This document shows positions 29,732-39,050 of a DNA stretch of 43,031 nt, piece after piece (position 1 is the stretch's first letter; every line of letters starts with the position of its first letter). Source of the DNA: Anaerolineae bacterium (lineage in GTDB: Bacteria; Chloroflexota; Anaerolineae; Anaerolineales; Villigracilaceae); contig JAFLCE010000027.1 of NCBI GenBank assembly GCA_017303655.1, positions 1-43,031 of the forward strand. Direction: 5' to 3'. Position numbers and translations under genes: made by a program. Below the pieces are notes generated by a model, which was not told the DNA's origin, did not search any database, and saw nothing but the letters and a program-made list of their open reading frames with translations.

Positions 29732-30799
29732 ATGCTAAAACTCCCCGGTTTGATCGACCCCCACGTGCATGTACGCGAACCCGGCGCCACTCATAAAGAG
29801 GATTGGGACACCGTCACCCAAGCCGCCCTTGCCGGAGGTGTAACAACCATCCTAGGCATGCCAAACACAAAACCTCCTATCTTCGATGAAACGACTCTCA
29901 ACCTTGCGCTGGATGCCGCCAAAGCGAAAGCCCGTTGCGACTATGGCCAATACATTGGCGCAGGTCCTGATAACGCGGAACTCGCCGCCTCGCTCGCGCC
30001 GAAAGCTGCCGGGCTAAAGATGTACCTTGACTCCACCTTTGGCGAATTGCGCCTCGACGATATGACCCTGTGGATGCCACACTTCCAAAAGTTCCCCAAA
30101 TCTGCGCCGATGGTGATGCACTCTGAAAGCCGGACGTTGGCTGCGGCGATTTTGTTCTCTGCTATCTATGATAATCCCGTTCACATTGCGCATGTTTCTT
30201 TAAAAGAGGAAATTCTGCTCATCAAAGCTGCAAAAGAGAAGGGCATCAAAGTCACCTGCGAAGTTTGTCCGCATCATTTGTTTCTTTCAAAGGAAGATAT
30301 CCCCGAAATCTCACACGGACACCCCGGTAGAGGCGAAGTCCGCCCACGTTTGGCAACAAAAGAAGATGTCCACAGCCTGTGGACAAATCTGGATGTGATC
30401 GATTGCTTCGCCACAGACCATGCTCCGCATACGCTTGAAGAAAAAGATGGCGAGAATCCGCCGCCGGGCTTCCCTGGGTTGGAGACGATGTTGCCGCTCT
30501 TGCTTACTGCCGTGGACGATGGACGATTGACCATAGACCATATCGTGCAAAAACTCTATACGAACCCCAAACGCATCTTCAATTTGCCTGAACAACCTGA
30601 AACCTGGGTGGAGGTGGATGAGAATGCAGTCTATGAGATCAAAGCCAGTGAAAGTTTCACCCGCTGCGGTTGGACTCCCTTTGAAGGCTGGCAGGTGAAG
30701 GGCAAAGTCCGCAAGGTGGTACTACGCGGCGAGACGGTTTTTGAAGATGGAAAGGTTCTGGCAAAGCCCGGCTCGGGCAGGAATGTGCGAGATTCGTGA
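29732..30799 (+). CDS. pyrC: Dihydroorotase, CAD type
   Basis: The 355-aa enzyme has the amidohydrolase metal site: H11 and H13 in DPHVHVREPG, K96 in GLKMYLDSTFGE as the probable carboxylated Lys, His residues in VCPHHLFLS and HIAHVS, and the catalytic Asp in ATDHAPH. From LPGLIDPHVHVREPG through GFPGLETMLPLLLTA and the C-terminal WTPFEGWQVKGKVRKVVLRG the sequence reads like the dihydroorotase domain of animal CAD. It converts carbamoyl-aspartate to dihydroorotate. A copy of a palindromic repeat word lies in its coding sequence at 30512-30541. The gene starts without a leader. Confidence 0.94.
   Translation: MLKLPGLIDPHVHVREPGATHKEDWDTVTQAALAGGVTTILGMPNTKPPIFDETTLNLALDAAKAKARCDYGQYIGAGPDNAELAASLAPKAAGLKMYLDSTFGELRLDDMTLWMPHFQKFPKSAPMVMHSESRTLAAAILFSAIYDNPVHIAHVSLKEEILLIKAAKEKGIKVTCEVCPHHLFLSKEDIPEISHGHPGRGEVRPRLATKEDVHSLWTNLDVIDCFATDHAPHTLEEKDGENPPPGFPGLETMLPLLLTAVDDGRLTIDHIVQKLYTNPKRIFNLPEQPETWVEVDENAVYEIKASESFTRCGWTPFEGWQVKGKVRKVVLRGETVFEDGKVLAKPGSGRNVRDS
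30512..30541. repeat. Repeat word inside the pyrC coding sequence
   Basis: GTGGACGATGGACGATTGAC and the following CATAGACCAT match the repeat family at 28411-28464 and 10420-10452 but are in frame in pyrC, encoding VDDGRLTIDH. Confidence 0.65.
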
Positions 30800-30809
30800 A
30801 ACAGATGAA

Positions 30810-31335
30810 TCCACAGCCTGATTCTGGGCTGTGGATAAGCGATTGGGCTGATTCGCCATTATTTGTAGGATTGCTATCCGAAATATCAGGTAGACACCCC
30901 ACATTTTGGGTGTGTTGTTTAGACAAGAAAGCCCTTCCCAGACCTCAAAACTGTGGATAAGTGCCACTTATCTGTGGACAACTGCCCTCTCCTGTGGACA
31001 ACATTGCCATTTATGAGAGAAAACGTCCGACAACTTATTTGGGTCATACCCCCAAATATGGGGGGCACATTATGCAAAACCCGAAATATGGAAAATGCCG
31101 AAAAAGTAGGTGCCGAGTCACTTGGGCTGTGGATAAGTTATCCAAACAAACCCACAGGTGCGATTCTTTCGAGGTTGGGCAATCAACCAAAGGCGTAGGG
31201 TGAGGCGCGTGTACTTCATCCAGATATGGGGGGTGAGTCGTGTTATCCACAGTATCCACACCCCCTACTAATATTACGAATCCATAATGATACTTATATA
31301 CCACTTGAATCCAATAAGGGTTTCCTATACAATCC
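30810..31335. other. oriC: Candidate replication origin (DnaA-box cluster)
   Basis: This gene-free stretch (30800-31380) holds four exact DnaA boxes (TTATCCACA or its complement): 30830-30838, 30952-30960 and 31128-31136 on the minus strand, 31243-31251 on the plus strand. Near-matches with one mismatch are at 30973-30981, 30993-31001, 31138-31146 and 31252-31260. An AT-rich segment at about 31265-31320 could be the unwinding element. Small hairpins occur at 30894-30913 and 31048-31065. DnaA is not encoded in the window. The density is far above chance, so it is an origin or another DnaA-binding locus. Confidence 0.75.
31265..31320. other. AT-rich candidate DNA-unwinding element
   Basis: The bases from ACTAATATTACGAATCC to the end of the stretch are clearly AT-rich and lie next to the plus-strand DnaA boxes at 31243-31260. 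Confidence 0.45.
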
Positions 31336-31380: not shown

Positions 31381-31686
31381 ATGGATATGATCAAAGTTTC
31401 AGCCAACTCCCGTACCTCAGCCGTCGCCGGTGCGATCGCAGGGGTCATTCGAGAACATAAACGGGCAGAAGTGCAAGCCATTGGTGCAGGCGCCGTCAAT
31501 CAGGCGGTGAAGGCCTTGGTGCTTGCTACGAGTTATTTGAAGAACGATGGCATCGATGTGATGTGTATGCCTGAGTTCGTGGATGTGGAAATTGAAGATA
31601 AGGTGCGCACCGCCATTAAGTTGGTAGTTGAACTGCGTCCACCTGCTCTACAATCTCCAGTTCCTCCAACGGAACCCGACATGTAG
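31381..31686 (+). CDS. spoVS: SpoVS-family (stage V sporulation S-like) protein
   Basis: The 101-aa protein has the small Alba-like fold of SpoVS: IKVSANSRTSAVAGAIAGVI, AEVQAIGAGAVNQAVKAL, a helix ATSYLKNDG, and a final strand that carries KVRTAIKLVVELRP. SpoVS acts in spore assembly and septation in Bacillus, but homologues occur widely in non-sporulating Chloroflexota and Thermus; nucleic-acid binding is suspected from the fold. GGGAGG precedes the ATG. The gene borders the DnaA-box region, which may or may not be significant. Confidence 0.9.
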   Translation: MDMIKVSANSRTSAVAGAIAGVIREHKRAEVQAIGAGAVNQAVKALVLATSYLKNDGIDVMCMPEFVDVEIEDKVRTAIKLVVELRPPALQSPVPPTEPDM

Positions 31687-36136: not shown

Positions 36137-36955
36137 ATGGAAACCTTCTTCTCTTTTCTTGAAAAACGCGTCGACGACTCTTCCTCCCTATTGTGCGTTG
36201 GACTCGACCCGCACATCTCCGACCTCCCAAGTCCTACCGCCGCCTCCGCGCTGACCTTCTGCCTGAATCTTGTCAAGCAGACCTCTCGTTACGCTGCGGC
36301 ATTCAAACCCAACGCCGCCTTCTTCGAAGTCTTCGGCGCTGAGGGATGGACGGCTCTCAAGCAGGTTATCGAAGCTATCAACGAAGAATCCGACCGAATG
36401 GGTTCGCGCATCCCCATCATCCTGGATGCAAAGCGGGGTGACATTTCCTCCACAGCCGAAGCCTACGCCCAATCCGCTTTCGAATCCCTTGGCGCAGATT
36501 GCATCACATTGAGTCCTTATCTTGGCAAAGATTCGATTGAGCCATTTCTTGGTCACAAACAAAAAGGCGTGTTCCTGCTTTGCAAGACCTCAAACAAAGG
36601 TTCCGGTGACCTGCAGGATGTAGTCCTTGCAAATGGCGACCCCATGTATATCCACGTTGCAAAACTTGCAGCAGCATGGAATGATAAAAATAATATCGGT
36701 CTAGTCGTCGGGGCGACGCATATCGAAGTGATGAAACAAGTCCGCGCGGCAGTGCCCGACCTGTGGTTTCTTGCACCTGGCGTGGGTGCCCAAGGCGGCG
36801 AATTGGAGATGACGCTCAGATCGGGTCTGCGCGAAGATGGCAAAGGTTTGCTTCTGCCGATCTCACGAGCCATCTCGCGTGCCGATAACCCCGGCAACGC
36901 CGCGGCAGAGATCCGCGATGAGATATTGCGAATCAAACGCGAGTTGAAAAAATAG
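36137..36955 (+). CDS. pyrF: Orotidine 5'-phosphate decarboxylase
   Basis: The 272-aa TIM barrel shows LLCVGLDPH at the first strand, FKPNAAFFE, the signature LDAKRGDI with the catalytic D97, K99 and D102, and the phosphate-binding LAPGVGAQGG near the C terminus. The length and LDAKRGDI pattern place it in the longer type. It converts OMP to UMP. AAGGAT lies before the ATG. First gene of the pyrF-pyrE-(PNPOx-like)-pyrD operon; 8 nt separate it from pyrE. Confidence 0.95.
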   Translation: METFFSFLEKRVDDSSSLLCVGLDPHISDLPSPTAASALTFCLNLVKQTSRYAAAFKPNAAFFEVFGAEGWTALKQVIEAINEESDRMGSRIPIILDAKRGDISSTAEAYAQSAFESLGADCITLSPYLGKDSIEPFLGHKQKGVFLLCKTSNKGSGDLQDVVLANGDPMYIHVAKLAAAWNDKNNIGLVVGATHIEVMKQVRAAVPDLWFLAPGVGAQGGELEMTLRSGLREDGKGLLLPISRAISRADNPGNAAAEIRDEILRIKRELKK

Positions 36956-36963
36956 GAGACACT

Positions 36964-37587
36964 ATGACAAACCAATTACGAATTACGAACCACGATTTAG
37001 CCGCGCTCGCTGATGGACTTCTCGAAGCAGGTTGCATCAAATTTGGTGAATTCACACTTAAGTCCGGACTCAAGTCTCCCATTTATATTGACCTGCGCTA
37101 TATCATTTCGTTTCCAAAATTGCTGGAGCAAATCGGTGCGGCGTATTTGCCTTTGCTTGAAACTCTGCAATTTTCGCGCATTGCGGGTTTGCCTTATGCT
37201 GCCATTCCAATAGCGACTGCCATCAGCCTCGTGGGAAACTATCCTATGATCTACCCGCGCAAAGAAGTGAAGACCTACGGCACCAAGGCTGAGATCGAAG
37301 GTGAATATCATTCCGGTGAGACAGTGGTCGTGATCGATGATCTCGCCACGACCGGCGGCAGTAAATTCGAAGCCATCGAAAAATTGACTGGCGTGGGGCT
37401 GGTGGTGAAAGATGTGGTCGTGCTGGTGGACCGTCAATCTGGCGCGAAAGAGTCTTTGGAGCAGGCAGGCTACAACCTCCATGCTGTGTTGACCATTACG
37501 CAGTTGTTAGATCATTGGGAAGCGAATGGAAAAGTAGCAAAAGAAAAGATCGAAGAGACAAGAGCCTTCTTGAAACAATCGTCATGA
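36964..37587 (+). CDS. pyrE: Orotate phosphoribosyltransferase
   Basis: The 207-aa protein has the PRPP loop VVVIDDLATTGGS at residues 121-133, the N-terminal LKSGLKSPIYIDLR for orotate binding and the flexible KEVKTYGTKAEIEG loop. It makes OMP from orotate and PRPP. GGAG precedes the ATG. It is followed without gap by the flavin-binding gene (ATGA overlap). Confidence 0.94.
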   Translation: MTNQLRITNHDLAALADGLLEAGCIKFGEFTLKSGLKSPIYIDLRYIISFPKLLEQIGAAYLPLLETLQFSRIAGLPYAAIPIATAISLVGNYPMIYPRKEVKTYGTKAEIEGEYHSGETVVVIDDLATTGGSKFEAIEKLTGVGLVVKDVVVLVDRQSGAKESLEQAGYNLHAVLTITQLLDHWEANGKVAKEKIEETRAFLKQSS

Positions 37588-38027
37588 CCTGGCAAATATT
37601 TTCCTCTCAATCTCCTGAACTTGCTGAATTTGCAAGCACGCGGCTTCATAGCAAGGTCGCCTATCTTGCCACCATTCGCAAAGATGGTTCGCCGCGCGTG
37701 CATCCCTTTACACCGATTATTGGTGAGGGACATTTCTTCGTATTCATGGAACCGACCTCGCCCAAAGGACATGACTTGCGCCGCGATCCGCGCTTTGCCA
37801 TTCACTGTTCCGTTTCTGATACGAGCGGAGAAAGTGGTGAAGTCATCGTCACGGGCAGGGCGGAATTTATTGAAGATGCAGGTCTGCGTGCAACAGCTGA
37901 GAGAGTCTCACCTTATAAACCGGCGGCACGCTATATTCTTTTCGAACTCCATCCCGAAGCAGTCACCACAACCGAATACCCAGATGGCGGAAGCCCTATC
38001 CGCACACATTGGAAGATCAACGAGTAG
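37584..38027 (+). CDS. Pyridoxamine 5'-phosphate oxidase-like flavin protein
   Basis: The 147-aa split-barrel protein starts ELAEFASTRLHSKVAYLAT and continues RKDGSPRVHPFTPI, the flavin-contacting strand of PNPOx-like proteins, then LRRDPRFAIHC and VTGRAEFIED. It lacks the C-terminal part of true PdxH. It probably binds FMN, F420 or heme, with unknown function. Its ATG overlaps the stop of pyrE, and pyrD starts 6 nt after its stop, so it is translated within the pyrimidine operon. Confidence 0.85.
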   Translation: MTWQIFSSQSPELAEFASTRLHSKVAYLATIRKDGSPRVHPFTPIIGEGHFFVFMEPTSPKGHDLRRDPRFAIHCSVSDTSGESGEVIVTGRAEFIEDAGLRATAERVSPYKPAARYILFELHPEAVTTTEYPDGGSPIRTHWKINE

Positions 38028-38033
38028 CTGACC

Positions 38034-39050
38034 TTGTATAACTTTCTTCGTCCTCTTCTCTTTCGCCTCAACCCCGAACGTGCGCATGTACTTACACTTC
38101 AAGCTTTGCGCATGTCCGGTAATTTCCCCATTTCACGCAAACTACTTGAACTCATGTATCAAGCGCCATCTAAGCCAGTCCAACTCTTTGGTTTGACTTT
38201 TAAGAATCAAATCGGCTTAGCGGCTGGCTACGATAAAGATGGGCTTGCGATTCGTGGATTAGCCGCTTTAGGCTTTGGGCACGTCGAGATTGGCACGGTC
38301 ACGCCCAAGCCGCAGCCGGGGAATCCGAGTCCGCGGGTGTTTCGTTTGGTGGAAGATGAAGCCGTTATCAATCGCATGGGCTTCCCCTCGCGAGGCGCAG
38401 AATTTGTGAAGAGGCAATTGAATAGAAGATCGAACTGGAACACAATCCTGGGGATAAACATTGGTAAGAATAAAGAGACTCCCAATGAAGCCGCGGAGAC
38501 TGATTATCTTGCTCTGTTGAAACATTTTGCACCCTATGCCGATTATCTGACGGTCAATGTCAGCTCGCCGAATACGGCTGGGCTGAGAGAGTTGCAGGAA
38601 CGCAAGTCGCTTGAGAGTCTGCTTCTGCATTTGCATCAACAACGCATAGTGGAGCAGGAACAGCTAAAGAAACATATTCCTATTCTGGTGAAGTTATCGC
38701 CGGATATGACTGAAGCCGGGTTGGATGAATCACTTGAAGCCATTTTGAATACGCATATGGATGGAGTCATTGTCACGAACACGACTCTTGGGCGCGAGGG
38801 GTTGAGATCGAGCTATCGGGGAGAAACAGGCGGGTTGAGTGGCACTCCGCTCAGGGTTAAGAGTGAGGCGGTTCTTCGTCAAACCATAAAATCTGTAAAT
38901 GGGAAGATTCCTGTGGTGAGCGCGGGCGGCATCATGAATGCGGATGATGCAAAACGCCGCCTCGAGATGGGGGCGGCGCTGGTGCAAGTCTATACAGGTT
39001 TGGTCTATCGTGGACCGGGCTTGGTGCAGGAGATCGTCAGAGCGATCTAG
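38034..39050 (+). CDS. pyrD: Dihydroorotate dehydrogenase (quinone), class 2
   Basis: The 338-aa protein begins with the membrane-associating helices of class 2 (LRPLLFRLNPERAH), then GLAAGYDKDG, EIGTVTPKPQPGNP, the base S178 in NVSSPNTAGLRELQ, and the FMN stretch VSAGGIMNADDAKRRLEMGA. Class 2 enzymes pass electrons to the quinone pool, in agreement with the two complex II operons. The start codon is TTG (38034), chosen because the N-terminal helix is conserved in the family. The stop overlaps the kinase stop on the other strand in a CTAG. Confidence 0.94.
   Translation: MYNFLRPLLFRLNPERAHVLTLQALRMSGNFPISRKLLELMYQAPSKPVQLFGLTFKNQIGLAAGYDKDGLAIRGLAALGFGHVEIGTVTPKPQPGNPSPRVFRLVEDEAVINRMGFPSRGAEFVKRQLNRRSNWNTILGINIGKNKETPNEAAETDYLALLKHFAPYADYLTVNVSSPNTAGLRELQERKSLESLLLHLHQQRIVEQEQLKKHIPILVKLSPDMTEAGLDESLEAILNTHMDGVIVTNTTLGREGLRSSYRGETGGLSGTPLRVKSEAVLRQTIKSVNGKIPVVSAGGIMNADDAKRRLEMGAALVQVYTGLVYRGPGLVQEIVRAI

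Follow-up and report, generated by a model that had tools for sequence, protein, structure and literature searches.

The DNA between a pyrC-like gene and spoVS of an Anaerolineae bacterium raises the question of whether a chromosomal replication origin may lie away from dnaA, and of what, apart from DnaA, might act on it. The window (i.e., the whole stretch of 43,031 nucleotides that was analysed) is contig C93 of an assembly of 4.6 Mb in 172 contigs, which is estimated to be 93.6% complete and 5.8% contaminated. Relatives were found through the SpoVS protein encoded in the window and are mostly labelled Anaerolineales, Anaerolineae, or Chloroflexi (genomes, contigs, and loci carry G, C, and L numbers below).

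An earlier note on this DNA had claimed four perfect and at least four near-perfect DnaA boxes, with minus-strand boxes to the left and plus-strand boxes to the right. Our analysis found all of them, eight boxes in 431 bp (four exact copies of TTATCCACA and four with one mismatch, Table 1), and every minus box precedes every plus box. Across the window, we counted 22 copies of TTATCCACA with no more than one mismatch, whereas 200 dinucleotide shuffles gave 8.9 on average; the densest 440 bp hold 8 boxes, the largest value in these shuffles being 3. Since the looser TTATNCACA with one mismatch displayed no clear enrichment over the window as a whole (40 versus 33 occurrences, with 15 of 100 shuffles reaching 40), the signal is a local cluster. 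As to the neighbors, spoVS is as that note had named it, and the pyrC assignment holds with the reservation that the family score of this PyrC-like dihydroorotase falls just below the cut-off. Pyrimidine genes flank the locus on both sides, with pyrF, pyrE, and pyrD lying within 36137-39050.

Table 1. Features of the proposed origin and of its flanks (window positions).
Feature	Position	Strand	Details
pyrC-like gene	29732-30799		dihydroorotase; top match TIGR00857, 269.3 bits, just under the cut-off of 279.05
Proposed oriC overall	30830-31276		DnaA boxes, NrdR-type boxes, and DnaA-trios, between the pyrC-like gene and spoVS
Outlying exact DnaA box	30830-30838	-	outside the conserved array
Left DnaA array, three boxes	30952-31001	-	30952 exact, 30973 and 30993 with one mismatch; spacing of 21 and 20 bp, nearly invariant
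NrdR-type box 1, CCCCCAAATATGGGGG	31049-31064		family consensus CCCCCATATATGGGGG; 19.6 bits, best in the window; conservation 0.93 versus 0.52
NrdR-type box 2, ACCCGAAATATGGAAA	31079-31094		30 bp offset to box 1, the 16-mers being 14 bp apart; core 31080-31091, conservation 0.81
Middle DnaA boxes	31128-31146		31128 exact (-), 31138 with one mismatch (+); less conserved than the outer arrays
Third NrdR-type site, weaker, CATCCAGATATGGGGG	31217-31232		13.5 bits, second-best matrix match of the window; weak conservation (0.68)
Right DnaA pair, tandem TTATCCACA-GTATCCACA	31243-31260	+	31243 exact, 31252 with one mismatch
DnaA-trios CTA-CTA-ATA-TTA	31265-31276	+	3'-GAT-GAT-TAT-AAT-5' on the opposite strand; layout as given in PMC8287927
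Putative spoVS promoter	31305-31333	+	TTGAAT, 17 bp, TACAAT; conservation 0.89 and 0.90; promoter role assigned by eye
spoVS	31381-31686	+	PF04232, 120.4 bits

Conservation of the boxes in relatives, which the earlier note had named as a check, was assessed by searching spoVS loci with at least 395 bp of DNA for three minus-strand boxes spaced by 21 and 20 bp. A SpoVS match occurs in 135 of 150 family genomes, and the 110 loci searched comprise 30 from family genomes and 80 named loci, two sets that may share genomes. This analysis uncovered the three-box signature in 64 of the 110 loci (28 of the 30 in the family set and 36 of the 80 in the named set). Seven named loci have too little upstream DNA, and the other 37, with enough of it, lack the signature; part of the order thus carries spoVS without it. 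After nine duplicate sequences were removed from the 64, an alignment of 55 distinct origins gave a mean major-base frequency of 0.88 for box columns and 0.61 for the other columns, with a mean of 0.52 for columns outside every named element. Column conservation in the left array is 0.93-1.0, save for a single position that varies in boxes 2 and 3. Two loci deserve separate mention. The complete genome G150 (CP075367.1) has a spoVS locus without boxes (L146) and two exact-box pairs at 216.9 and 321.7 kb. In G044, a 15-kb contig bears three exact DnaA boxes within 75 bp close to one of its ends (C6:13725-13799, L266), where a mobile element could have its origin or iterons.

The AT-rich segment that the same note had placed next to the cluster follows the last plus-strand box, as CCCC and then the AT-rich CTACTAATATTACGAATCCATAATGATACTTATATA. 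More specifically, the CCCC spacer (31261-31264) separates the right DnaA pair from the DnaA-trios, with which the AT-rich unwinding element begins before reaching about 31303. The rule for the basal unwinding system (BUS), as worded in PMC8287927, calls for three or more trios with a middle A that start no more than 16 bp from a DnaA box. Here, the box at 31243 is followed after 13 bp by four trios from 31265, with the middle A on the other strand. A box, 3-5 nt, and CTACTA occur in this order in 49 of the 55 distinct origins, and CTACTA is absent in two.

The absence of dnaA and dnaN from the locus, also claimed earlier, stands for this genome in that both are on other contigs: dnaA on C110, and the dnaN match on C135 together with two parS sites, no match to dnaN being present within the window. 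In the six relatives in which both were located, by contrast, dnaN is close to the origin, at distances of about 22 kb (G008 and G044), 18 kb (G063 and G127), 37 kb (G058), and 3 kb (G151, Longilinea arvoryzae). A better box cluster beside dnaA, which would have spoken against an origin at spoVS, was not found, the 19 kb around dnaA holding only two one-mismatch boxes and no cluster; an oriC beside dnaA is therefore rejected. In three relatives assembled as single contigs, spoVS and dnaA lie at 505 and 3068 kb (G008, 4404 kb), 556 and 1486 kb (G063, 4128 kb), and 3906 and 552 kb (G058, 3971 kb), i.e., 1.8, 0.9, and 0.6 Mb apart, respectively, by the shorter way if the chromosomes are circular.

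We also searched for parS-like sites at up to one mismatch, a setting at which a reversed control pattern matched once (in G063). They lie 10-40 kb from spoVS in seven of eight relatives (G008, G063, G058, G041, G127, G044, and G078), and the sole match in G132, an atypical one, is 439 kb away. In the genome of the window, C135 carries two such sites and C35 a further, atypical match. The GC skew, which was sampled and corrected for gene direction, peaks near 2490 kb in G008, 2490 kb in G063, and 1610 kb in G058. Its minimum is broad, covering spoVS in G063 (values no more than 1.5 above the lowest at 350-555 kb) and in G008 (values no more than 4 above the lowest at 70-950 kb, the range being 85). 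The sampled skew of G058 reaches its lowest point at 3450 kb, 455 kb from spoVS, and spoVS itself has only a shallower low, spanning 3760-3927 kb. Given this breadth and a resolution of only some hundred kb, the skew is compatible with an origin at spoVS and is no proof of it. Collectively, the box phasing, the trio module, the nearby parS and dnaN in relatives, the broad but compatible skew minimum, and the absence of box clustering around dnaA indicate that the region of about 30952-31303 is very probably the chromosomal replication origin. This would place the origin in a largely uncultured order, near dnaN while dnaA is far away.

The first reading of this DNA had overlooked a conserved palindrome, CCCCCATATATGGGGG, which is located between both DnaA-box arms and in most cases is followed, 30 bp to its right, by a weaker copy. 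Allowing up to two mismatches, we located the palindrome at 37 places in ten genomes, and the reversed control at one (in G008). Fifteen of the 37 are in G063, where one is at the origin and 14 form seven pairs, 106-145 bp apart, at 1429.7 (L286), 2058.0, 2139.4, 2297.0, 2594.0, 3090.3, and 4094.9 kb; the palindrome is probably carried here by a repeat or a mobile element. The other nine genomes account for 22 places: nine at the origin (two of them in G058), six upstream of dnaA, three upstream of nrdR, and four elsewhere. Because 18 of the 22 places outside the repeat-rich G063 are thus at the origin, dnaA, or nrdR, we set aside the reading of the palindrome as a plain repeat. The genome of the window has it at three places, one at the origin, one at dnaA, and one on contig C99, where the palindrome (C99:11657-11672, L285) is ~100 bp upstream of two ORFs that look polyphosphate kinase 2-like by eye.

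Upstream of dnaA, the palindrome is present in 15 of 16 genomes, scoring 15.6-21.6 bits and lying 332-374 bp before the start (the distance in G132 was corrected for a truncated match); on direct scan, it is absent from this position in G006. All 16 genomes encode nrdR, and all 16 nrdR promoters contain the palindrome core with a weaker partner 29-31 bp away, as found in a partner search limited to 29-33 bp, with some partners two bases off register. The leaders of both genes share additional words. Those of dnaA (L001 and L037-L051) have GGCTGAAAC...TGTTCTA, repeated TTTAACAT-like words, and TGCTAGAAT in common, and those of nrdR (L288-L302) have TTTGTTCTA directly after the second box. These words may possibly be another common regulatory element.

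We built a matrix from the 16 nrdR promoters, taking two boxes from each and making it palindromic; its consensus is CCCCCATATATGGGGG, and its seed core was picked after the origin motif had been seen, with the flanks left open. The two highest-scoring sites in the 43-kb window are both in the origin, at 31049 and 31217. In ~2.0 Mb sampled from G008, G063, and G058, deliberately including their origins and two dnaA genes, six places score at least 18 bits: all three origins, the promoters of two dnaA genes, and a copy of the repeat of G063. The NrdR pair pattern published in PMC12051234 comprises two boxes of the form C.[AT].A[AT].[AT].G that are separated by 14-17 or 24-27 bp, and the NrdRs described there require two boxes. 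Indeed, 46 of the 55 origins contain this pattern, against 1.7 expected from shuffles, and nine lack it; the pair in the window has 14 bp between its boxes. In 42 origins, the spacer (20, i.e., 14 bp between the 16-mers) is identical. In its strict form, the pattern occurs in 3 of the 16 nrdR promoters and is missed by the other 13, and the dnaA site is a single box.

NrdR is a repressor that senses dATP. The one encoded by this genome matches NrdR structures that have been solved (best 2.9e-33) and scores 168.8 bits against a family cut-off of 124.65. According to PMC9110341, R17 is needed for DNA binding by the NrdR of Streptomyces coelicolor. As for the DNA-contacting residues D15 and R17, D15 is kept here, and each of the 15 proteins compared (all but that of G150) has S or T at position 17. 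Because of this replacement, we call the pair NrdR-type and do not regard it as a proven NrdR operator. Positions 5 and 12 of the boxes being C and G, we suspect that the specificity of this NrdR has shifted. With regard to gene order, PMC4898720 states that nrdR usually clusters with ribonucleotide reductase (RNR) genes or with replication genes such as dnaA. The sequence, the conservation, the placement, and the matrix specificity are what was shown here, from which origin activity, NrdR binding, and the sign of NrdR action are inferred; that the locus is an oriC with an NrdR-type pair bound by NrdR is, as the whole explanation, reasonably likely.

A different location of the origin has to be weighed against this, given that the earlier note had allowed for either an origin or a DnaA-titration site. 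A second cluster, at C85:79284-79560 (L005:9285-9561), packs nine boxes, 4 of them exact and 5 near, into 276 bp of a single strand; it is denser than the one at spoVS and is flanked by a gene for sugar-nucleotide metabolism (by eye) and a DUF4260 gene. Clusters in a similar neighborhood lie 355 kb (G008, at 150.4 kb), 237 kb (G063, at 792.6 kb), 330 kb (G127, at 1559.5 kb), 155 kb (G041, at 360.0 kb), and 74 kb (G044, at 460.4 kb of C8) from spoVS, within or near the broad skew minimum. They contain 6-10 DnaA boxes, nearly all on the same strand, in a sugar-nucleotide gene cluster. A DUF4260 match was obtained in 49 of the 150 genomes, G041 and G044 having none. Among 30 DUF4260 loci, 6 of which are cut by contig ends, boxes on the strand of the gene and upstream of it number at least six in 16, three or four in 6, and none in 8; the locus of this type in G058 has one exact and three near boxes. 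That the spoVS locus merely titrates DnaA or regulates, with the true origin elsewhere (e.g., at the C85 cluster), could draw on these box numbers and distances. It is nevertheless highly improbable, since the C85-type boxes are one-stranded, eight of the 30 neighbor-gene loci have no box on the strand of the gene, and parS and dnaN as well as trios and box phasing are all found at spoVS. In addition, the only two exact boxes up to 500 bp apart in the complete genome G058 are at spoVS, as is, among the matches listed, the only exact-box cluster of G078. We therefore reject the C85 cluster as an origin. Of the two readings in the earlier note, the origin suits spoVS, and titration suits the C85 cluster better, which is possibly a DnaA reservoir.

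Even with oriC at this locus, the palindrome could belong to a different regulator that also controls dnaA and nrdR, akin to CtrA, the master regulator in Caulobacter. This is rather unlikely but a serious rival, and it would account for S or T in place of R17, for the single site at dnaA, for the 13 nrdR promoters without the strict pair, and for the 4 of 22 places outside G063 that are at neither the origin, dnaA, nor nrdR. Against it, the box retains the letters that the NrdR pattern demands, as given in PMC12051234, and nrdR itself is preceded by such boxes in pairs, with a spacing of about three helix turns. Alternatively, the pair might be an ordinary spoVS operator with no relation to initiation, given that the boxes are within the upstream region of spoVS and that NrdR is known as a transcriptional repressor (PMC12051234 and PMC12176259). 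We consider this very unlikely because the conserved spoVS promoter is more than 200 bp from the boxes, whereas at nrdR the boxes directly follow a -10-like element (by eye); moreover, the boxes are inside a conserved DnaA array.

Returning to an oriC bound by NrdR, we propose the following sequence of events. DnaA would load on the left three-box array and the right tandem pair and then spread along the DnaA-trios, upon which the AT-rich segment would open. While dATP is plentiful, a dATP-loaded NrdR tetramer on the box pair would sit between the DnaA arms, bend the DNA there, and restrain initiation when dATP is not being consumed. We lean toward such a tetramer binding oriC, bending it, and probably restraining initiation, with further action at dnaA and nrdR. 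The broader proposition, that NrdR of Anaerolineales binds directly both within oriC and in the dnaA promoter, with the dNTP pool thereby controlling initiation itself in addition to RNR expression, seems to us evenly balanced. We favor NrdR as a brake on DnaA assembly rather than a licence for it, since a brake is consistent with RNR repression by NrdR and with the reported finding that raised dNTPs delay S phase in Caulobacter. It is also possible that NrdR is an architectural aid, by analogy with IHF at the oriC of E. coli.

A full-text search, within the portions of text that it covered, returned no statement of NrdR boxes inside oriC; an earlier mention is possible, the 2005 paper that reportedly defined the NrdR boxes being outside the results. 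According to a 2025 review (PMC11853086), that dNTP pools limit initiation at oriC remains to be verified, and the same review asks how dNTP synthesis and initiation are coordinated in species without Hda. If our reading is true, a nucleotide-sensor operator inside the origin would be a direct molecular link from dNTP supply to initiation, hinting that these bacteria couple replication initiation to the availability of dNTPs.

Among known systems, datA is the DnaA reservoir of E. coli. The C85 cluster resembles it in having many boxes, no trios that we noticed, and a distance of 74-355 kb from the origin in five relatives. The spoVS locus differs in its trios and AT-rich segment, and because this unwinding module is present, we do not class it as a datA-type reservoir. 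CtrA, AdpA, and SeqA bind both oriC and the dnaA promoter; here, likewise, one motif is found at oriC and dnaA, with the difference that the candidate NrdR would sense dATP/ATP and also regulate dNTP synthesis. With a Bacillus subtilis-type BUS oriC, as described in PMC8287927, the locus shares tandem boxes, a short G/C spacer, trios with a middle A, and an AT-rich segment. Unlike that origin, it is not beside dnaA (dnaN is 3-37 kb away and dnaA, in three relatives, 0.6-1.8 Mb), and it has an NrdR-type box pair between the DnaA arms. Finally, the NrdR operators of RNR genes, as presented in PMC9110341, PMC12051234, and PMC12176259, share with our sites the 16-bp palindrome, the demanded C, A/T, and G positions, and the pairing about three helix turns apart, and the motif is also upstream of nrdR here. 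The sites described here differ from them in having C and G at box positions 5 and 12, in facing an NrdR with S or T and not R at residue 17, and in their placement inside the origin and upstream of dnaA.
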